A stretch of 64,000 bases of DNA, from the NCBI GenBank assembly GCA_019745075.1, contig JAIETR010000003.1:1-64000 (forward strand). The letters run 5' to 3'. The notes beneath the pieces were generated by a model. The model was given only the letters and a program-made list of their open reading frames with translations, ran no database searches and was not told the DNA's origin. The position numbers were made by a program, and so were the translations under genes. The DNA comes from Qipengyuania sp. GTDB lineage: Bacteria; Pseudomonadota; Alphaproteobacteria; Sphingomonadales; Sphingomonadaceae. Shown in pieces: positions 34,600-54,736 of the stretch (the stretch's first letter is position 1; every line of letters starts with the position of its first letter).

Positions 34600-34853
34600 A
34601 GAGCCAGATGACACCAGGTAGCACCACCGTGATTGCCCGGAGCGGCTTCGTGGCGAGGCGCGGCGCCCCTCGGCTGGCTGCTTGCAGCAGCCGCTCGGGA
34701 TAAACTGGCCCCTTGGGCCAGCGGCGGGCCGATTTTGGCTCAGCGCCGCGTGGCTCGTCGGTCACCATGCTTCGGCATGGCTCCCTCCTCGCGCCTTGCG
34801 CCGGGCCAAAATCGACTCCGTCACGGCGGTGCTACCTGGCGTCATCTGGCTCT
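34600..34853. repeat. 254-base inverted-repeat element with nested hairpins (MITE-like)
   Basis: Arms 34600-34632 and 34821-34853 are inverted copies, 31 of 33 bases matching, starting AGAGCCAGATGAC. Inside are further stems: GAGCGGCT 34640-34647 with AGCCGCTC 34689-34696; CTGGCCC-CTT-GGGCCAG 34705-34721; GATTTTGGC 34731-34739 with GCCAAAATC 34805-34813; and CCATGC-TTCG-GCATGG 34765-34780 with a stable TTCG loop. No convincing reading frame is present. The right arm runs over the stop codon of the flavodoxin gene (34852-34854). No clear target duplication is visible. Confidence 0.8.
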
Positions 34854-46217: not shown

Positions 46218-49200
46218 TCAATGGAAGTCGCGGGATTTGGGAATGATCCGCACATCGCGCGGATGGCCCCGCTGGGGATAGCCGCAATCGCGGTTCCCCG
46301 GGCCCGGCGGTTGCCAATCGGGCGTTTTCGGACCCTCGTCGCCCCTCCCCTCCGCCGCCAACACGCCATGCGGGCCCCAGCGGCTCGGCAGCGGGTTGTT
46401 GCAATGATCGGCGCGGGCGATGGTGGTCGGCATGAGATCGTCCGACAGGCGATGAAGATCGTGCGTGGCGTCGGCAAGATGCGTGGCGATCACGTGGATC
46501 ACCTCGTCGTCGTATTCCACCCGGCCGCGCACTTCCATCAGCCGCGACCCCATGATGACCTTGCGGTATCTTTCCATCGTGTCGGGCCAGATCACCAGGT
46601 TGACGATCCCGGTCTCGTCCTCGAGCGTGATGAAGCACACGCCCTTGGCGCTGCCGGGGCGCTGGCGGATCAGCACCACCCCCGCGATCTGGACCGCAGA
46701 GCGGAATTTGCGGGCCCTGAGCTCGGCGGCGGGGACGAAGCCACGCTCGGCCAGCGCGGGACGCAGGAAGCTCAAGGGATGCGCCTTCAGGCTGAGCCGC
46801 TGGGTCTGGTAATCGGCGACGACCTCTTCGGACAAAGGCATTGCGGGCAGATTGGTGAGGGCTTTCTCCGCCCCTTCTTCACGCTCGCGCGCCGCGGCGA
46901 ACAGCGGCAGCTCGGGCGTGGAGACCAGCGCGCGCGCATCCCACAGCGCCTGCCGCCGCTTGAGCTGCAGCGAGCCGAAGCAGTCGGCCGCGGCAAGCCG
47001 CTCGATCTGGTGGCCCGGCGGGCGGGCGCGGTCGCGCAGCGCGATCACATCGGTGAAAGCGCCACCCTCGGCGCGTGACGCGACGAGCTGCGCGGCTACC
47101 GCCTCCGGCAGCCCGTCGACCTGCCGAAGACCAAGGCGCAGCGCCCAGCCCTTGTCCAGGCGCCAGCGGTCGCGCGGGGCCTTCGACAGGCTCAGGCCGA
47201 GCGGGAGTGGGGATGAAATTTCAGAAGAAGGTCCGCTCATGCTGAGCTTGTCGAAGCACACGCGCCGATCGTCCGACATTTTCTCCAGCGTGCAATCCCA
47301 GTCCGAATAATTGACGTCGACCGGCAGCACCGTCACGCCGTGCTCCTCGGCATCGCGGACGATCTGCGCGGGCGCATAGAAGCCCATCGGCTGCGAGTTC
47401 AGCAGCGCCGCGGCGAAGGCGGCGGGGTAATGGCATTTGAGCCAGCTCGAGACATAGACCAGCAGCGCGAAGCTGGCGGCATGGCTCTCGGGAAAGCCGT
47501 ATTCGCCGAAACCCTTGATCTGGTTGAAGCAGCGCTGCGCGAACTCGGGATCGTATCCGCGCGCGACCATGCGGCTGACCATCTTCTCCTGGTGCAAATC
47601 CATCATCCCGCGCGAGCGGAAGGTGGCCATCGCCTTGCGCAGCTGATTGGCCTCCGCCGGCGAAAACCTGGCGGCATCGATGGCGATCTTCATCGCCTGC
47701 TCCTGGAAGATCGGCACACCGTAGGTGCGACCGAGGATCGCGGACAACTCGTCGCGGGGACCGTGCTCGGGCGATGGGCCAGGCAGATCGAACACCGCCC
47801 TCCCCTCGCGGTCCGCCCGGCGCTGCTTCAGATAGGGATGGACCATGTCGCCCTGGATCGGCCCCGGCCGCACGATCGCCACCTGAACCGTCAGATCGTA
47901 CATCTTGCGGGGTTTGAGGCGCGGCAGCATGTTCATCTGCGCCCGGCTCTCGACCTGGAACACGCCGAGCGAATCCCCCTCGCACAGCATGTCGTACACC
48001 GCCGGGTCCTCCGTCGGAACGGTGGCGAGATCGTAGCTCTCGCCGTGATGATCCTCGATCAGCCGGAAAGTCTTGCGGACGCAGGTCAGCATCCCGAGCG
48101 CGAGGATATCGAGCTTCATGATGCCGAGATCGTCGATATCGTCCTTGTCCCACTCGATGAAGCTGCGCTCGGGCATGGCGCCATTGCCGATCGGCACCGT
48201 CTCGGTCAGCGGCCCGTCGGTGAGGATGAAGCCGCCGACGTGCTGGCTGAGGTGGCGCGGCATGTCGATCATCTGCTCGGTCAGCTTCATGACTCGCTTC
48301 AGGTGCGGATCGGTGAGGTCGAGCCCGGTTTCCTTGCGGGCATGCTCGGGATCGATCGCGCGCCCGTGGCCGCCCCACACGGTGCGCGCGAGCGCCGCGG
48401 TCACGTCCTCGGTCAGCCCCATCGCCTTGCCGACCTCGCGGATCGCCATGCGGGGGCGATAGTGGATCACCGTGGCGCACAGCCCGGCCCTGTCGCGCCC
48501 GTATTTCTGGTAGATGTGCTGGATCACCTCCTCGCGCCGCTCATGCTCGAAATCGACATCGATGTCGGGTGGCTCGCTGCCGCGCTCGGTCGAGATGAAG
48601 CGGTCGAATAGCAGCTCGTTCTCGGCCGGATCGACCGAGGTGATGCCGAGACAGAAGCACACCGCCGAATTGGCCGCCGAGCCGCGCCCCTGGCACAGGA
48701 TCGGCGGCTCGCGGCTGCGTGCGAACTCGACGATGCTCTGGATCGTGAGGAAATAGCGCGCGAGATCGAGTTGCTGGACGATGTCGAGCTCGTATTTCAG
48801 CGCCTTCTCAACTTTCTCCGGCAGGCCCTTGGGAAACCGCCATTTTATGCCCTCTCGAACTTGGTGCTCGAGCCATTGCTGCGGCGTCATCCCATCGGGA
48901 TAATGCTCCTCCGGATACTCGTACTTCAGCTCGTCGAGGCTGAAACGGCAGCCATCGGCCACCCCGCGCGCCGCCGCGATCGCATGGGGCCAGCGGGCGA
49001 AGAGCTCGATCATCTCTGCGGGTGACTTGAGATGCCGCTCGGCATTGGCGGCGAGTAGATAGCCGGCCTTCGCAACGGTGGTCTTGTGCCGGATCGCGGT
49101 CATCACGTCATGCAGCGGCCGCCGCTCGGGCGCGTGGTAGTGCACGTCATTGGTGGCTAGCAGCGTCAGCCCGTTCGCCCTCGCCAGCGCATCGAGCCGC

Positions 49201-50063
49201 TCGATCCGCGCAATGTCGTCGCCTGTATGGAGGAAGCTCGCCGCAAGATGGCGAAGGGTGGGGAGTTGAGCGGTCAGCTGGGGGAAGATTTCATGCAGAG
49301 TGCCCCTCAGCGGGTTTTTTTCGCGCAGAGCCGCTGAGAGCGCGGAGGAAGAGTGGGCGCTCGCAAAGGCGCGAAGGCGCGAAGATGCACCGCCGCCGTC
49401 AGGCGGCAGTCCAACAGATTCATTGATTGCAGAAGATGATATGCGGCTTCGCCGCGAGACAGAATCCTTTGCGCCTTTGCGCCTTTGCGAGCGCGAAATA
49501 CCACCATCCTCCGCGCTTTCCGCGTCTCTTCGCGAAACCGGAAAAAACACCACATTGCTTGGCACCTCGATCGTGAACGTCTGCTCCAGATCGCGCGGCG
49601 GCAGCAGGATCAGCTGCACATCCTCGCTATGCTCGGCCAGCATCGCCAGGCCGATGTCGCAGGCGCCCTTGGCCTGCCATTCGTCGTCGAGCGTCGCCAT
49701 CCGCCCGGCGCTGACGAGGCGGCAGAGGCGGCCATAGGCGGCGCGGTCCCTGGGGTAGGCGAGGAAAGCGAGCCCCTCGATCGTCTCGATCCTGCAGCCG
49801 ATCGCCGGTTTCAGCTTGAGCCTCTTGGCCTCGGTATGCAGGCGCACCACCCCGGCCATGGAATTCGCATCCGCGATGCCGATGGCGTCATAGCCGAGCC
49901 GCCAGGCGGTCATCACCAGATCGGTCGGCAGCGAGGCGCCGCGCAGGAACGAGAAGCAGCTGACCAGACCCAGCTCGACGAAGGGCGCGCGCGGCGGGGG
50001 CGCTATCTCGTCGGGATCGACCTCGGCTGTGCGGCGCGGGATGAGAAGATCGTTCTCGGGCAT
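46218..50063 (-). CDS. dnaE2: Error-prone DNA polymerase DnaE2 with in-frame repeat insertions
   Basis: A 1281-residue C-family polymerase, clearly longer than the roughly 1050-1150 usual for DnaE2. It has a PHP domain (ELGLVSCFSFLRGASLP), palm acidic residues in PPDIDVDFEHERR (about residue 500), IMKLDILALGML, the thumb/fingers region (GVPIFQEQAMKIAIDAA, GFGEYGFPESHAASFALLVY) and an OB domain (GVVLIRQRPGSAKGVCFITLEDETG); it ends RIIPKSRDFH. It performs SOS lesion bypass with ImuA and ImuB. The extra length comes from a block at about residues 167-260 and another at about 930-970, each coding through a palindromic repeat. A LexA box lies 120 bases upstream. Confidence 0.95.
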   Translation of the reverse strand: MPENDLLIPRRTAEVDPDEIAPPPRAPFVELGLVSCFSFLRGASLPTDLVMTAWRLGYDAIGIADANSMAGVVRLHTEAKRLKLKPAIGCRIETIEGLAFLAYPRDRAAYGRLCRLVSAGRMATLDDEWQAKGACDIGLAMLAEHSEDVQLILLPPRDLEQTFTIEVPSNVVFFPVSRRDAESAEDGGISRSQRRKGAKDSVSRRSRISSSAINESVGLPPDGGGASSRLRAFASAHSSSALSAALREKNPLRGTLHEIFPQLTAQLPTLRHLAASFLHTGDDIARIERLDALARANGLTLLATNDVHYHAPERRPLHDVMTAIRHKTTVAKAGYLLAANAERHLKSPAEMIELFARWPHAIAAARGVADGCRFSLDELKYEYPEEHYPDGMTPQQWLEHQVREGIKWRFPKGLPEKVEKALKYELDIVQQLDLARYFLTIQSIVEFARSREPPILCQGRGSAANSAVCFCLGITSVDPAENELLFDRFISTERGSEPPDIDVDFEHERREEVIQHIYQKYGRDRAGLCATVIHYRPRMAIREVGKAMGLTEDVTAALARTVWGGHGRAIDPEHARKETGLDLTDPHLKRVMKLTEQMIDMPRHLSQHVGGFILTDGPLTETVPIGNGAMPERSFIEWDKDDIDDLGIMKLDILALGMLTCVRKTFRLIEDHHGESYDLATVPTEDPAVYDMLCEGDSLGVFQVESRAQMNMLPRLKPRKMYDLTVQVAIVRPGPIQGDMVHPYLKQRRADREGRAVFDLPGPSPEHGPRDELSAILGRTYGVPIFQEQAMKIAIDAARFSPAEANQLRKAMATFRSRGMMDLHQEKMVSRMVARGYDPEFAQRCFNQIKGFGEYGFPESHAASFALLVYVSSWLKCHYPAAFAAALLNSQPMGFYAPAQIVRDAEEHGVTVLPVDVNYSDWDCTLEKMSDDRRVCFDKLSMSGPSSEISSPLPLGLSLSKAPRDRWRLDKGWALRLGLRQVDGLPEAVAAQLVASRAEGGAFTDVIALRDRARPPGHQIERLAAADCFGSLQLKRRQALWDARALVSTPELPLFAAAREREEGAEKALTNLPAMPLSEEVVADYQTQRLSLKAHPLSFLRPALAERGFVPAAELRARKFRSAVQIAGVVLIRQRPGSAKGVCFITLEDETGIVNLVIWPDTMERYRKVIMGSRLMEVRGRVEYDDEVIHVIATHLADATHDLHRLSDDLMPTTIARADHCNNPLPSRWGPHGVLAAEGRGDEGPKTPDWQPPGPGNRDCGYPQRGHPRDVRIIPKSRDFH
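47181..47256. repeat. Palindromic repeat inside dnaE2 coding sequence (FDKL-LSLSK type)
   Basis: Arms 47181-47204 (CTTCGACAGGCTCAGG...) and 47233-47256 (ending GAGCTTGTCGAAG) are inverted, with four mismatches in 24. The same family occurs in intergenic DNA at 58997-59066. In the dnaE2 frame it reads CFDKLSMSGP on one arm and LSLSKAPRD on the other, the peptide such elements give in this frame. It interrupts the segment between DWDCTLE and the ALRLGLRQV motif without breaking the frame. Confidence 0.8.
49314..49548. repeat. Large inverted-repeat element inside dnaE2 coding sequence
   Basis: Arms of about 71 and 82 bases (49314-49384 and 49467-49548) are imperfect inverted copies. They share GCGCGGAGGA and CGCTCGCAAAGGCGC followed by a repeated AAGGCGC unit, with poly-T and poly-A tracts at the outer ends. 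The roughly 80-base centre contains a small GCCGCC/GGCGGC hairpin. Translated, it gives a Ser/Arg-rich stretch (about residues 172-249 of DnaE2) with no resemblance to other C-family polymerases. The frame stays open. Confidence 0.8.
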
Positions 50064-50067
50064 GGCA

Positions 50068-50181
50068 TCACGCCAACTCCTCCAGCCGCTTCTTCATCTG
50101 CGTCGATTGTCCCGCGGGCGCGAAGCGTGGGGCGTTCTTGAAGCGAATTTCGAGCTTTTGGAGGATGGTGTGCGACGTCAT
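50068..50181 (-). CDS. 37-residue leader reading frame between the SOS box and dnaE2
   Basis: A short frame from ATG 50181 to TGA 50068, starting three bases from the LexA box and ending four bases before the dnaE2 ATG. The product, beginning MTSHTILQKLEIRFKN and ending MKKRLEELA, is basic. Its last codons contain GGAGGAG, the likely ribosome-binding site of dnaE2. It could be a leader peptide coupling translation to dnaE2 or simply the 5' untranslated region. Because the SOS promoter predicts a start at about its ATG, it may be translated from a leaderless mRNA. I do not recognise the peptide. Confidence 0.4.
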   Translation of the reverse strand: MTSHTILQKLEIRFKNAPRFAPAGQSTQMKKRLEELA

Positions 50182-50183
50182 TC

Positions 50184-50216
50184 GTTCCTTATATGTTCCG
50201 ATGAAGGATTCGCCAA
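50184..50216 (-). promoter_or_regulatory. SOS promoter with LexA box for dnaE2
   Basis: The LexA box GTTCCTTATATGTTC (50184-50198) is an exact GTTC-N7-GTTC match to the alphaproteobacterial consensus. On the minus strand, -35 TTGGCG (50211-50216) and -10 TATAAG (50188-50193) are 17 bases apart, with the -10 inside the LexA box. The predicted start lies at about 50181-50183. LexA binding would block the -10; DNA damage should relieve it. The promoter of imuA has nearly the same design. Confidence 0.85.
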
Positions 50217-50350
50217 GAGCCATTGTCGCAGCACGGGCGCTTGCGCGCGAAGCGAGGCGCGTGAGCGGAATGGTAAATGCCCTGCCCACCCTGTTTCGCG
50301 AGGCGGCCTTAACCACCCTTTGGCACTCATGCGCGCAACGGGAGCATCGC

Positions 50351-50743
50351 TTGGCCTTCTTCAACGTCAGAACCGCCGAGGTCCAGCCGGACCGCCGCGT
50401 CGCGCGCCGCTATGTCGTGGACTGCCCTGCGCGGCTGACGATGTCCGGCGGGGATCGCGACGGACGGTTGACGGACCTTTCCGAACACGGCGCCAGATTC
50501 GAAACAGCCTCGCCACCTGTTGCGGGCACCACCGGCTTCCTGCGCTGGGAAGGCGAGGAGCATTACTGCACCGTCATCTGGAGCGCCGAAGGTCGTTGCG
50601 GGCTGAAATTCGACCGTGCGATCCGGACCGGCCTGGTCGAGAAGACTTGCAGCCATGTCGAAGTGACGCTCAAGCCCGTGGCGGCCGTGGGCCGCATTCC
50701 GCTCGGCCAGCGCCGCTCGGGCCGCGTGGCGATCGTCGACTAG
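50351..50743 (+). CDS. PilZ-domain protein
   Basis: A protein of about 130 residues dominated by one PilZ domain, the c-di-GMP receptor fold. The Arg-rich RRVARRYVVDCPARL start and the DLSEHGARFE motif (D/N-x-S-x-x-G) are the ligand-binding signatures, and WSAEGRCGLKFDRAI closes the barrel. The start is uncertain: TTG at 50351 has GGGAG six bases upstream and gives the usual short N-terminus MAFFNVRTAEVQPDRR. In-frame ATG codons at 50201 and 50270 would add 50 or 27 residues. The stop overlaps the convergent regulator gene by four bases. Confidence 0.8.
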   Translation: MAFFNVRTAEVQPDRRVARRYVVDCPARLTMSGGDRDGRLTDLSEHGARFETASPPVAGTTGFLRWEGEEHYCTVIWSAEGRCGLKFDRAIRTGLVEKTCSHVEVTLKPVAAVGRIPLGQRRSGRVAIVD

Positions 50744-51765
50744 GCCCCCGGTTGGGCCGTCCGGGCGCGAATCATCCCGGCGACAACCAGCGCGGTGAAC
50801 AGCGCCCCTTCGAACCCACCGGCCACAGCCAGCCAGCGGCTGTCCTCTGCCCAACTCAACGACAGGCCGGCGGCGGGGAAGCGCGCGACGAGCGCGGCGA
50901 GGCTGCCCGCCATCAGCGTGCCGCCCAGCAAACTGATCGCGAACCCGCCAAGGCCACCGAGCAGCGCTGCCGGGCCGAACCGCGCCACTGCGCGAGGACC
51001 GGGCCGCGAGGCCAGCCAATAGGACAGCCCGACCGCCAATCCTATCACCAGCCCCTCCCCCGCGCCGGCGATCCGGTCGGGCGCGCTGCCCGTCAGCAGG
51101 CGCAGCGTGTCGAGCCCGAGCAGGCGCGCGAATCCACCGACCACCACGCCGCCGAGGGCTCCACCCGCGACCGGGCGCCACCATTCGGAGCGCCCTGGGG
51201 CGGTTTGCCATCCGATCCCGCCCGCGATTCCGAGGCTCGAGACCAGCGCCGCGAGCACGGAGACGCAGACCAGCACCAGCACCAGCGACAGCGCGTTGCC
51301 TGGGCCCGAACCGGCGGCGAGGGTTCCGTAAACGAGACCGACCAGCAGCCCCGCTGCGGCCGCTCCGCTGACTCCGCCGGCGACGACGCGCAGCCGTTCG
51401 TCGGCCGCCACGGCCGTTGCGGTGGGGCTTTCCTGCAAGGGAATTCCCGCCACTTCGCCGACGAAACGGTAGCCATGGCGCGGCACGGTCTCGATGAAGC
51501 GCGGGCGCGCGGCGTCGTCGCCGAGCGCGCGGCGCAGCGCCATGATCGCCTGCGACAGCGCCTCGTCGGTCACCGGCACGCCGCGCCAGACCTCCTCGTG
51601 CAGCCGATCCTTGGAGATGAGCTGACCGCGCTCGCGGACCAGCATGACCAGCGCGTCGAAATAGCGTCCGCCGAGCTCGACCGGCGTGCCGGCGCGAAGG
51701 AGCAGGCGATTGGCCGGGTCGAGCGTGAATTCGGCGAAGCGGACGATCCGGTCAGACGATTTCAC
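50740..51765 (-). CDS. Membrane-integrated winged-helix regulator (CadC/ToxR-like N-terminus, multi-helix C-terminus)
   Basis: A 341-residue protein with an OmpR-type winged-helix domain at residues 8-105 (FTLDPANRLLLRAG, LHEEVWRGVPVTDEALSQAI, FIETVPRHGYRFVGEV). Unlike CadC, which has one membrane helix and a periplasmic sensor, residues 125-335 form about six or seven hydrophobic, Gly/Ala-rich helices with short loops. It would regulate transcription from the membrane, possibly sensing membrane state. GTG at 51765 is used. A small membrane protein gene is divergent from it and is a candidate target. Confidence 0.75.
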   Translation of the reverse strand: MKSSDRIVRFAEFTLDPANRLLLRAGTPVELGGRYFDALVMLVRERGQLISKDRLHEEVWRGVPVTDEALSQAIMALRRALGDDAARPRFIETVPRHGYRFVGEVAGIPLQESPTATAVAADERLRVVAGGVSGAAAAGLLVGLVYGTLAAGSGPGNALSLVLVLVCVSVLAALVSSLGIAGGIGWQTAPGRSEWWRPVAGGALGGVVVGGFARLLGLDTLRLLTGSAPDRIAGAGEGLVIGLAVGLSYWLASRPGPRAVARFGPAALLGGLGGFAISLLGGTLMAGSLAALVARFPAAGLSLSWAEDSRWLAVAGGFEGALFTALVVAGMIRARTAQPGA

Positions 51766-51845
51766 GGCCTACTCACCCGTCCCTCATGGCACTCATCGCG
51801 TGGTCCGGCAGGACGGTGGCCTCTTTTCGCAATGGAGGCAACACG

Positions 51846-52163
51846 ATGGACCGGACTTTGAACCAGGCTCGCGGCGCCAGGGTGGCGTGGCGTGCGATCC
51901 TGTGGGGCGGGCTCGGCCTGCTGCTGTCGCTCCCCGCGCTGGCGATGTCGCTGGGGGCCGAGGGCATCGATTGGTCGGCATCCGATTTCATCATAATGGG
52001 CGTGCTGCTGGCCGCGCTGGGAGTCGGGATCGAAGCCGCGGTGCGTATGCTGGCGGGCTGGCGGAGCCGGCTGATCGCGATCGGCGCGGTACTGATCGTG
52101 TTCCTGACGATCTGGATCGAGCTGGCGGTCGGCGTGTTCGGTACGCCCTTCGCCGGCAGCTAG
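51846..52163 (+). CDS. Small three-helix membrane protein of unknown function
   Basis: A 105-residue protein with about three hydrophobic helices (AILWGGLGLLLSLPALAMSL, FIIMGVLLAALGVGIEAAV and LIAIGAVLIVFLTIWIELAV). I chose ATG at 51846 because GGAGG lies nine bases upstream; an in-frame ATG at 51786 has no ribosome-binding site. It is divergent from the membrane-integrated regulator (80-base gap) and overlaps the imuB stop by four bases on the other strand. I do not recognise a family. Confidence 0.65.
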   Translation: MDRTLNQARGARVAWRAILWGGLGLLLSLPALAMSLGAEGIDWSASDFIIMGVLLAALGVGIEAAVRMLAGWRSRLIAIGAVLIVFLTIWIELAVGVFGTPFAGS

Positions 52164-53872
52164 GCGCACAGCCCTTGCAGGTACCAGTCGGGCACGCCGC
52201 CGCGCCCGTCGCCGATCAGCCCGGCGCGATAAATCCAGTAGCGGCGCCCGGCATCGTCCTCGATCCGGTAATAGTCGCGCAGCCGGGTGCCGCCCTTCTC
52301 GCGCCACCATTCCGGCGCGATGCGCTCGGGACCTTCGACGCACACGACATCGTGCACCGCGCCGCGCCAGCGGAAGCGCTGCGGATAGCCATCGGGCGTC
52401 GCGTAGAGCACCGCGATCTGCTCCGGTTTATCGAGCAATTTGAGCGGTCTGTGGTGGAAGGCTAAGAGTTCTTGCGAAGTCGGCTCGGGGGCCAGCGGTT
52501 TCTGCCAGCGCTGCGCGCGCTCGGGCAGATGGCTGGCGAAGGGGACCGGGCGGCTCACCGCCCTCTCGCCCAGCCTTACCGTAAGCCGGTCGATGCAGGC
52601 GGCCAGCGTGGTGCCGGGCTTCTCCGCCGCTGCCTCCAGCCCCACCTGGGCCAGCGCCAGCGGCTCGGTCCAGCTGGCGCGCAGCCGCACCATCTCGATC
52701 CCGAACCCGGCATCGATGTCGTCGAGCTTGCCCGCGAACAGGCGGCCGATATGCGCCGCCTCGCGCGTGGCGACCGCCATTTCGAGGCGCTTGACCGTCA
52801 CCGCGCCGTCGATCCGCCACAGCCCCAGCTCGAGCCGCCGCGCCCCCTCGCCCCTACGCTCCAGCTCGCGCGCCATGTCCGAGGCGAGATTGGCGAGTAC
52901 GCGGTCGAGCAGTTCGCGGTGGCGGATCGGCTCCATCGGCCGGCGCTGGACCAGCGGCGGCACGGCGGGCGCCACCGGCAGCAGCGGCTCGGGAATGCGG
53001 CCGAGGAGCTGGTCGAGCCGGAGCAGCGGATTGGCGGCGGGCGAGCGGCGGTTGCGGAAGCGGCGCTGGATCGCGTCGCGCCCGCTTGCAGCGTCCTCCA
53101 CGCCCGAAAGCTGCCCGATCCGCTTGATGCCCAGCCGCCGCAGCACCGTCAGCACCGCGCTCTCGAGCCGCAGCGCCGCGACCGGCAGATCGGCAAGTTG
53201 CAAGGGCAGCTCATAGAAAGAAGAAAAGTTGGGGCGCTCACAGAGGCGCAGAGGCACAGAGGGGTTTGGCCGCGAAGCGGCCTTTTCGCCTCCAGGACAA
53301 GGCTCCGCAGTATCGAGCGGCTGCGCCGCAAGCGCCTCCTCTCCGTGCCTCTGTGCCTCTGTGAGCGCATATTCTCCCTCGAGTATCGCGCCCCCGGACC
53401 CGAAATGCGCCAGCGCCCAGGCCGCGCCGGCGGTGGGGGCGATCGCGGCGCGCACGGCCAGCCCGCGGCGCGCGAAAGCCGCATGGACGTCGCCGATCAG
53501 CTCGGCCTCGCCGCCGAAGAGGTGCGCGACGGCGGTGACATCGACCAGCAGCCCGTCGGGCGGGTCGAGCGCGACCCACGGGCCCCAGCGGCCCGACCAG
53601 ACGGCGAGCTGCTCGAGCAAGGCGAGATCGCCTGCCTGATCACGCGGCGCGGCGGCGATCCGGGGGCAGAGCGCGCGCGCATCGGCGAGCATCATGCCGA
53701 CGCGCGCGCCCGCTTCCGCGGCGGGCCGGCCCAGCGCCGCGATCCGTGGCCCATGCGCGGTATTGGCGATCAGGACGCGTGGGCGGCCCGGCTCCTCCTC
53801 GCCGTGCGCGAGGCGATGCCGGTCCATGGCCAGCGCCGGCAGCCACAGCGAAAGGATACGGCGGGGCGGCAT
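52160..53872 (-). CDS. imuB: ImuB, catalytically dead Y-family polymerase homologue of the SOS mutasome
   Basis: A 570-residue protein with a Y-family polymerase-like core. It links ImuA, DnaE2 and the beta clamp for lesion bypass. The catalytic acidic residues of active Y-family enzymes are missing: the N-terminus reads LWLPALAMDRHRL instead of a DxD motif, and VALDPPDGLLVDVTAVAHLFGG replaces SIDEAYLD. The start LSLWLPALAMDR and the C-terminal WRGAVHDVVCVEGPERIAPEWW and DYYRIEDDAGRRYWIYR are typical of ImuB. Residues of about 165-219 are encoded by a palindromic repeat and are absent from ordinary ImuB. It starts two bases after the imuA stop. Confidence 0.92.
   Translation of the reverse strand: MPPRRILSLWLPALAMDRHRLAHGEEEPGRPRVLIANTAHGPRIAALGRPAAEAGARVGMMLADARALCPRIAAAPRDQAGDLALLEQLAVWSGRWGPWVALDPPDGLLVDVTAVAHLFGGEAELIGDVHAAFARRGLAVRAAIAPTAGAAWALAHFGSGGAILEGEYALTEAQRHGEEALAAQPLDTAEPCPGGEKAASRPNPSVPLRLCERPNFSSFYELPLQLADLPVAALRLESAVLTVLRRLGIKRIGQLSGVEDAASGRDAIQRRFRNRRSPAANPLLRLDQLLGRIPEPLLPVAPAVPPLVQRRPMEPIRHRELLDRVLANLASDMARELERRGEGARRLELGLWRIDGAVTVKRLEMAVATREAAHIGRLFAGKLDDIDAGFGIEMVRLRASWTEPLALAQVGLEAAAEKPGTTLAACIDRLTVRLGERAVSRPVPFASHLPERAQRWQKPLAPEPTSQELLAFHHRPLKLLDKPEQIAVLYATPDGYPQRFRWRGAVHDVVCVEGPERIAPEWWREKGGTRLRDYYRIEDDAGRRYWIYRAGLIGDGRGGVPDWYLQGLCA
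53234..53368. repeat. Palindromic repeat inside imuB coding sequence (CAGAGGC type)
   Basis: Arms begin at 53234 and end at 53368 on opposite strands; the outer 28 bases match with two mismatches (GCGCTCACAGAGGCGCAGAG on one side). Each arm repeats the unit CAGAGGC(A/G). A central region includes GGCCGCGAAGCGGCC, a perfect short palindrome. The insert is 135 bases, an exact multiple of three, and gives EAQRHGEEALAAQPLD... and VPLRLCERP within ImuB. It belongs to the same CAGAG/CGAGCG-rich style as the larger dnaE2 element. Confidence 0.8.
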
Positions 53873-53874
53873 GG

Positions 53875-54699
53875 TCAGTTGAGGATGGAAACCCTTCGAG
53901 ACGGGCGCTCAGACTGCGTCTTCGCCCCCTCCTCAGGGCGAACGGATACTGAGAAACCCCGTTCGTCCTGAGGAGCCGAGGACGCAGTCCGAGGTGTCTG
54001 GAAGGGCCGGTCAGCCACTAGCCCCCTCCCCTCCTCGCGCAACACCCACTTCCCCGGCGCATGGGCGCGGGCGCGGAACAGCTCGGCATGCCAGGCGGGG
54101 GCGCCGGGGGCCTGCGCGTTCCATTCGGACGGCGCGGAGGCGGCAGATGCCACCTCCCACCGCATCCGCGCCGAGGACAGGTCGCGCGCGGCGTCGAGGC
54201 GGACGAGGTAGAGCGGCACGCCGTGGCGCTCGGCCGCCAGCGTCAACCGGCGCGAGGCGGTGAAATCCAAGGCGCGCGGATTGCCCGTCACCTCGCCCAG
54301 CACGAAGGCCACCTCGCGGCAGCGCACCCCCTCCTCGAGCGCGAACAGCGCATCCTCGGGCTTGTCGGCCAGCACGTGAATGAGCCGAGGGCGCAGCTCG
54401 GCGGGAAGGCCGGGGCGGTAGGGCCGGCCGGTCAGCCGCGCCGCCTCGCGCGTCTGCACCCACAGCACCGCGCGGCGGTCCTCCGCCTGGGAGCCTTCGA
54501 TGGACTGGGCATGACGCCGGTCGTCGAGCGCCAGCGCCAGTGCTGCCGCCGCCCCGCCTGCCTCGCGCGAGCAGGCGAAGATTTCGCTGTGGCAGGCGCC
54601 GCCAAGCCCCGGGCGCCAGCGTTCGCTGCGCCGGGCGGTAAGCGCGGCGAGGTCGCATTGGCTGGCAAGGTTGTCGAAAGGCATGGCGGAACGACTCAT
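53875..54699 (-). CDS. imuA: ImuA-like SOS mutasome protein
   Basis: A 274-residue RecA/SulA-fold relative without a Walker A ATPase loop; it interacts with ImuB and RecA in lesion bypass. Typical segments are ACHSEIFACSREAGGAAAALALAL, VLWVQTREAARLTGRPYRPGL, RLIHVLADKPEDALFALEEGVRC and WHAELFRARAHAPGKWVLR. The natural end was probably near VADRPFQTP; the last roughly 38 residues are encoded by a palindromic repeat. ATG 54699 is chosen because the LexA box begins three bases upstream; ATG 54684 is an alternative. It is transcribed with imuB. Confidence 0.88.
   Translation of the reverse strand: MSRSAMPFDNLASQCDLAALTARRSERWRPGLGGACHSEIFACSREAGGAAAALALALDDRRHAQSIEGSQAEDRRAVLWVQTREAARLTGRPYRPGLPAELRPRLIHVLADKPEDALFALEEGVRCREVAFVLGEVTGNPRALDFTASRRLTLAAERHGVPLYLVRLDAARDLSSARMRWEVASAASAPSEWNAQAPGAPAWHAELFRARAHAPGKWVLREEGRGLVADRPFQTPRTASSAPQDERGFSVSVRPEEGAKTQSERPSRRVSILN
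53893..54005. repeat. Palindromic repeat forming the 3' end of imuA
   Basis: Arms of about 50 bases (53893-53945 and 53957-54005) are inverted copies. The best-paired cores are GACTGCGTC with GACGCAGTC and CTCCTCAGGGCGAACGG with CCGTTCGTCCTGAGGAG (one mismatch). This type, with a GTTCGTCCTGAGGAG core, is common between genes in sphingomonads (family knowledge). Here it supplies the final codons of imuA, giving RTASSAPQDERGFSVSV and following residues, just before imuB. Confidence 0.82.
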
Positions 54700-54701
54700 A
54701 C

Positions 54702-54736
54702 GTTCCACTTATGTTCCATTCCTGAAGAAATCGCAA
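54702..54736 (-). promoter_or_regulatory. SOS promoter with LexA box for imuA-imuB
   Basis: The LexA box GTTCCACTTATGTTC (54702-54716) is an exact GTTC-N7-GTTC match. On the minus strand, -35 TTGCGA (54731-54736) and -10 CATAAG (54708-54713) are 17 bases apart, with the -10 inside the box. The predicted start is within a few bases of ATG 54699. The layout repeats that of the dnaE2 promoter, so both units should be induced together. Confidence 0.85.

Follow-up and report, generated by a model that had tools for sequence, protein, structure and literature searches.

In a draft genome of Qipengyuania sp. (assembly GCA_019745075.1), each of the three SOS mutasome genes, imuA, imuB and dnaE2, carries in-frame palindromic repeat DNA, and in related sphingomonads the corresponding loops of DnaE2 appear to have been entered repeatedly by unrelated palindrome families. 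The genes lie on the minus strand of the stretch that we analysed, positions 1 to 64,000 of contig JAIETR010000003.1, hereafter referred to as the window. We favour a model in which mobile palindromes persist where a protein loop or tail tolerates them, such loops being re-entered by whichever family is active, and we put its probability at about 0.64. The source genome, G000 (G and L numbers denote genomes and loci), consists of 82 contigs and is 93.8% complete.

In-frame palindromes in imuA, imuB and dnaE2

The largest of the three genes, dnaE2 (46218..50063, minus strand), is an open frame for an error-prone DNA polymerase of 1281 aa (NCBIfam NF004225, 1344.6 bits) and holds two in-frame elements. 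Site 1 (49319..49537, minus strand; approximately aa 176-249) is a composite family A element with outer arms at 49319-49349 and 49507-49537 (31 nt, 87%) and inner arms at 49357-49384 and 49467-49494 (28 nt, 93%). The same outer-plus-inner layout is seen by eye in several intergenic copies of the family, so that a second, nested insertion is not required to explain the concentric arms. Site 2 (47181..47256, minus strand; approximately aa 936-961) is a two-armed family C doublet (CTTCGACARGCTCAG) within the HhH region, spanned by a Pfam HHH_6 match at aa 909-1039. The second gene, imuB (52160..53872, minus strand), encodes a Y-family polymerase homologue of 570 aa (Pfam IMS, 29.2 bits; cut-off 23.2), and its element (53234..53368, minus strand; approximately aa 168-213) lies between the IMS and IMS_C matches, with arms at 53234-53264 and 53338-53368 (31 nt, 90%). 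Like DnaE2 site 1, it belongs to family A, defined by GCGCTCRCARAGGCRCARAG arms.

The third gene, imuA (53875..54708, minus strand), ends with a stop immediately ahead of the imuB start and encodes 277 aa when counted from the GTG at 54708; the real start may be an ATG further downstream. Neither NCBIfam (E up to 1e-10) nor Pfam (E up to 0.01) gave a model match for ImuA, which is named from gene order and homologues. A family D element (CCGTTCGYCCTGAGGAG arms) at the 3' end of the gene (53908..53993, minus strand; arms 53908-53931 and 53970-53993, 24 nt, 83%) constitutes the C-terminal tail of ImuA.

The best inverted-repeat score was 22 at DnaE2 site 1, 12 at DnaE2 site 2 and 22 at the ImuB element, against maxima of 11, 11 and 12 in 60 shuffles, and 14 for the ImuA tail against a shuffle maximum of 9. 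Site 2 taken by itself would be a weak palindrome, and its assignment depends on identity with family C, which has 96 arms genome-wide. The initial annotation, which had reported inverted repeats of at least three sequence families at 53893-54005, 53234-53368, 49314-49548 and 47181-47256, in genes that remain open, is confirmed on these points. Its description of the elements as internal holds for DnaE2 and ImuB; the ImuA element instead supplies the C-terminus. It had also found no such element inside any other gene of the window, and a scan of those among the 54 called genes that reach 300 bp indeed gave a strong palindrome in imuA, imuB and dnaE2 only.

Comparison with relatives supports in-frame insertion of the palindromes into genes that already existed. 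This reading is favoured because relatives have no such DNA at these places, in keeping with the Rickettsia-like mode of insertion first proposed. The closest relative, an Altererythrobacter metagenome-assembled genome (L031/L136; DnaE2 approximately 83% identical), lacks all four window inserts: DnaE2 site 1 is without counterpart in L031/L136, and DnaE2 site 2 and the ImuB element are missing from L136. Where homologues lack the inserts, the protein segments at these places are shorter, not equally long. Within DnaE2 site 2, a 201-nt family A insert is present in L184 and absent from its 97%-identical sister L149, and L143 retains an apparent deletion remnant of a family B element. One exact insertion base common to all families is ruled out, as the families enter within approximately 20 nt of one another. 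With dN/dS values against L136 of approximately 0.19-0.22, imuA, imuB and dnaE2 are, by this measure, under purifying selection, and the PDIDVDF motif of DnaE2 is invariant in a 14-row alignment.

The DnaE2 inserts lie in or near the PHP domain (site 1) and in the HhH region (site 2); in the sequence alignment with 3e0d, a solved polymerase chain, site 2 corresponds to a loop of just a few residues. AlphaFold models, built from shallow alignments (14 sequences for DnaE2, 10 for ImuB; mean predicted local distance difference test score, pLDDT, 66.7 and 75.0), gave pLDDT <50 at aa 167-249 and 920-973 of DnaE2 and aa 168-219 of ImuB, and the insert peptides are predicted to be disordered.

Repeated occupation of the same loops

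A DnaE2 alignment of 67 rows, comprising 58 loci from the same GTDB genus, eight named loci and the window, supplied 60 rows for a tree; seven partial, duplicate or other DnaE2-like rows were excluded. In one excluded row, the partial L189, site 2 resembles an insert but does not score above its shuffles. Site 1 was occupied in 20 of the 60 rows and site 2 in 12 (L161 being truncated at a contig end); at least one insert was present in 22 rows, 17 of 53 within the genus and five of the seven other named loci, and 38 rows had none. Site 1 shows six states and site 2 six or seven, by family labels that were assigned by eye. The minimum number of state changes on the gene tree was 17 at site 1 and 11 at site 2, or 13 and 10 when presence alone was scored; the tree is a quick one with 23 of 57 inner branches weak, and these are counts of changes, not of gains.

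Palindromy exceeded all 60 shuffles in 17 of the 20 site-1 inserts, in nine of 11 tested site-2 inserts and in none of 19 stretches without an insert taken from these two sites. The inserts that stayed below this level (L142, L163 and L170 at site 1; L141 and L140 at site 2) owe their labels to sequence similarity; they either look decayed or tie with their shuffles. The two DnaE2 loops are thus shown, at the level of alignment and gene tree, to carry unrelated palindrome families that would have entered repeatedly. Family B lies at the same codon of site 1 in opposite orientations in close relatives (L138/L182 versus L164/L178), which suggests in-place inversion between the arms.

Recurrence extends to the other two mutasome proteins. 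In ImuB a single place is occupied by family A in the window and by a different family in the sisters L041 and L032 (L032 not above its shuffles), and because the families differ it must have been hit at least twice. ImuA tails scored above their shuffles in the window (family D) and in L174 and L178 (family C); those of L163 and L170 look alike by eye, and are not above shuffles.

Control proteins are hit as well. Palindromic inserts occur at a single loop in two of 34 MutS rows and at a single loop in five of 38 UvrA rows, where they are clear in G000, G028 and G041 and weak in G047 (which ties its shuffles) and G038 (no recognised family); three of 11 extra UvrA loci (L358, L365, L370) were excluded from the counts. 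PheT has two-armed inserts in two of 35 rows, and single arms in G004 and G029. In the replicative polymerase DnaE1, a family C-like segment occupies one loop (approximately aa 305-340) in six of 30 rows (L232-L237) that do not form one clade, and L237 has the segment while its near-identical sister L247 is without it. The tree of this loop needs four changes, at least three of them forced by well-supported branches, which rules out a single old insertion inherited by one clade. One of four DnaE1 segments tested, that of L235, has lost its palindromy and retained its length, as if a decayed palindrome had been domesticated. As the loops of DnaE1, UvrA and MutS have also been re-hit, same-loop recurrence is a general feature of the affected proteins.

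Five replicate genomes (G004, G005, G018, G021 and G032), picked for an element in their DnaE2, yielded 51 family A or B elements, one weak family B arm of G021 being left out of the classification. The majority (41) are intergenic, three lie at gene edges and seven are gene-internal: five in DnaE2, one in glyS and one where a pntB-like frame begins (a possible calling error), so that excluding DnaE2 the gene-internal share is 2/46. Family B is the family within DnaE2 in G004, G005, G018 and G032. Nine family A elements were classified in G021; one of them (C1:858657-858779, beside L184) lies approximately 1.6 kb upstream of dnaE2, in addition to the intragenic copy.

Distribution in the source genome and relation to known elements

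Genome-wide, G000 contains 96 family C arms, 34 family A arms (at most three mismatches) and 34 family D arms; reversed-pattern controls returned none for C and D, and seven for A at the loose three-mismatch setting. These 164 arms group into 94 clusters, 67 of them two-armed, and most copies are intergenic. The genome search proposed with the initial annotation placed 10 of the 67 two-armed clusters inside called genes, four of the 10 in imuA, imuB and dnaE2. The remaining six all belong to family C and fall in genes for malate synthase G (glcB), PheT, DnaE1, pyruvate dehydrogenase E2 (pdhC), SucB and UbiG. Intergenic copies gave no sign of adaptation to coding through unusually open frames: of six frames, the number open per intergenic copy was 3.10 versus 2.62 on resampling for family A, 2.88 versus 3.60 for C and 3.47 versus 3.43 for D. 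Element frames are thus open about as often as expected by chance, and coding adaptation is not required.

The expectation that repeats would be less frequent in other genes of the genome stands in part. Strong palindromes do occur in other genes, yet the rate is low: among 351 called genes of 300 bp or more, 328 kb in all, 12 have one, including the mutasome trio and a third E2-like gene, and the sample is biased towards islands of the genome (416 kb including the window) picked around families A, C and D. In the genome, in-frame palindromes beyond the trio are present in dnaE1, uvrA, mutS, pheT, glcB, three genes for acyltransferases and a ubiG-like gene. Inverted repeats scoring at least 14 numbered 24 in the 351 genes and three after codon shuffling, and longer genes were affected more often, the palindrome rate being 4/14 for genes of at least 2 kb, 5/77 for those of 1.2-2 kb and 3/260 for shorter ones. 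In the three E2 acyltransferases, the third of which is an E2-like protein scoring below NCBIfam cut-offs, the palindromes fall at aa 105-205 of approximately 420-460 residues, the zone in which E2 linkers presumably lie. The labels lpd-like, pntB-like and ybaK-like, where we apply them to frames, are likewise presumptive. MutS and UvrA of G000, picked before their state was known, have clean palindromes (scores of 22 and 20 against a shuffle maximum of 10), and recN contains a single family C arm. A second, diverged imuA-imuB-dnaE2 cassette on contig C8 (L192; DnaE2 of 1108 aa, 47% identical to that of L031) is free of inserts at the DnaE2 sites and lacks any palindrome scoring 14 or more. 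Outside called genes, the window also holds an inverted repeat at 34600-34853, whose 33-nt arms (94%) enclose a centre of 188 nt.

The elements have the layout of miniature inverted-repeat transposable elements (MITEs), with terminal inverted repeats of 15-30 bp and lengths of 70-300 bp. REPINs and bacterial interspersed mosaic elements, which are tied to a transposase associated with repetitive extragenic palindromes (REPs), the RAYT, likewise have two inverted arms, a short spacer and tens of copies per genome; they differ in that no RAYT gene here is clearly flanked by any of the families A-H labelled in this work. Four matches to the Y1 transposase model (Y1_Tnp) were found in G000. A cognate RAYT was not found among them: the RAYT-like L354 and L355 have only loose, chance-like matches to families A-H, and the IS200-like L352 has one arm of another family approximately 0.7 kb away. 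The L354 gene (contig C3, near 44263) has TTAGGGACAGTCCCTAATT-type inverted repeats on both sides and is possibly, with them, a REPtron of an unrelated family.

Palindromic repeats in DnaE2 and other repair genes were already known. The main text of Di Nocera, De Gregorio and Rocco (2013; PMC3733652) describes CGTC/GTAG REPs within DnaE2, uvrA, recB, polymerase I and tRNA synthetase genes, names hosts that include S. wittichii, S. alaskensis and E. litoralis, doubts that intragenic REPs in repair genes are fortuitous and suggests mutators; recB is given as a case of same-site insertion, other genes of that category having different sites. Our elements resemble those of that text in being open-frame palindromes, many in replication or repair genes, with DnaE2 named and tRNA synthetases hit too. 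Judged by eye, inserts of families B and G in the relatives conform to the CGTC layout, with a CGTC tag, a stem of 8 bp and a loop of 4-5 nt, whereas window families A, C and D lack the terminal CGTC tag, and the REP layout with its stem of 8-9 bp and loop of 4-5 nt is not seen in them. The same main text mentions neither imuA, imuB nor mutS, and has neither a tree nor empty sites nor per-gene controls.

Rickettsia and Wolbachia palindromic elements are described, in PMC10969869 and PMC3767692, as in-frame elements of approximately 100-150 bp and several families at solvent-exposed places, one gene carrying elements in the same region in both genera. The likeness to our elements is one of mode of action only, an in-frame palindrome in a pre-existing gene; ours lie mainly between genes and show no enrichment of open frames. 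Titles and abstract openings in the literature, with subscription journals and supplements outside the scope, gave no palindromic inserts in ImuA or ImuB and no repeated same-loop insertion in DnaE2. To that extent we extend a published pattern and describe no new kind of element; what is new is the occurrence in all three mutasome genes of one genome, the further repeat families, the near-empty sites and the repeated same-loop occupation with controls.

Loop tolerance and competing explanations

In the model that we favour, short non-autonomous REP/MITE-like palindromes of several unrelated families would have spread through sphingomonad genomes, most copies settling between genes. A gene-borne copy would be kept only with an open frame and a peptide in a tolerant surface loop or tail; candidate places are the DnaE2 loops after the PHP strand ending SNVVPF and, in the HhH region, after WDCTLE, the ImuB loop between IMS and IMS_C, and the C-terminus of ImuA. 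The family active in a lineage would enter these places repeatedly, and its copies would afterwards decay or shrink. Filtering of inserted repeats by reading frame and loop is well supported, and we infer that the insert peptides are near-neutral and that loop tolerance accounts for most of the pattern. The suggestion that these genes tolerate insertions through being rarely used proved too narrow as a general rule, because replicative dnaE1 and pheT also carry inserts.

Several observations weigh against the loop-tolerance model. DnaE2 is the most frequently occupied protein of those examined, with inserts in 17 of 53 genus rows against 2/34 for MutS (Fisher p 0.004), 2/35 for PheT (p 0.003) and 5/38 for UvrA (p 0.048), p values that are too optimistic because the rows are related; the difference from DnaE1 (6/30) is not significant (p 0.31). 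Extra control loci were partly picked for long spans, which inflates the control rates. Loop tolerance by itself does not predict this excess, which is seen in the present sample and for which tolerant loops, SOS-time targeting or selection on mutagenesis may be responsible. Element abundance is also an imperfect guide, since G028 has 10 family A arms and G000 has 24 family B arms and neither carries that family in DnaE2. No transposase for families A, C or D was found in a search confined to Y1_Tnp matches. A target-site duplication is not established, the L149/L184 junction reading ambiguously, and pLDDT falls below 50 at further segments of both the DnaE2 and the ImuB model.

An alternative that we judge unlikely is that the inserts tune or dampen DnaE2 or ImuB activity, hence the mutation rate, and are favoured for it, along the lines of the main text of PMC3733652. 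Replication and repair genes are hit both there and here (dnaE1, dnaE2, imuA, imuB, uvrA, mutS), and two of the inserts lie in or adjoin functional regions, PHP and HhH. However, the repair genes are the ones that were chosen for inspection, and insert sequence, length and family vary freely among relatives, with 38 of 60 DnaE2 rows empty.

We are similarly sceptical of SOS-coupled landing, in which DNA damage, with its abundant single-stranded DNA, would mobilise elements that prefer the SOS genes transcribed at that time, imuA-imuB, dnaE2, uvrA and recN. The two perfect window matches to GTTCN7GTTC, which we take to be the LexA-type SOS operator motif, are at the imuA start (54702..54716, plus strand) and approximately 120 bp upstream of dnaE2 (50184..50198, plus strand); boxes with at most one mismatch number 37 against 36.5 expected, and since this is no above-chance signal only the placement of the boxes is notable. 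The UvrA control is palindromic at one loop in the five genomes listed above, recN has its family C arm, and the genome its four Y1 transposase matches. Against these points, glcB, pheT, glyS, mutS, pdhC, sucB and ubiG are also hit, none of them known to be an SOS gene; the RAYT-like L354 and L355 match families A-H only at a chance-like level; and the second mutasome cassette of G000 has no palindrome at the threshold of 14. The four changes on the DnaE1 tree slightly lower the odds of SOS landing and slightly raise those of the loop filter. Still more doubtful is the stronger idea that SOS genes, dnaE2 foremost, serve as landing pads for single-stranded elements, with mutator loops rewritten repeatedly by unrelated families and their activity affected.

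The further proposal that the mutasome captures hairpins through its own activity at stalled forks is unsupported and seems very improbable. It has in its favour the coincidence of genes only; a polymerase that acts in trans would not obviously prefer its own genes, and G040 (95% complete, no DnaE2 detected, a loss that could be recent) still has 14 family B and 15 family C arms and a pheT palindrome. The interpretation offered with the initial annotation is partly supported overall. That the genes are decaying, or the inserts assembly artefacts, as the draft state of G000 might suggest, is highly implausible given the open frames, the invariant PDIDVDF, a dN/dS of approximately 0.2 and the same pattern in relatives of one or two contigs (e.g. 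G005, G029 and the remnant in G043).

Intragenic palindromic repeats are usually regarded as rare oddities. Here, natural insertions that seem independent are numerous at two defined loops of a single polymerase, and near-empty sister alleles accompany them. Such alleles make it testable whether insertion is targeted or filtered by selection, and what effect an insert has on induced mutagenesis. Length variation in DnaE2, DnaE1, UvrA and MutS may accordingly be a matter of repeat DNA rather than of domain evolution.

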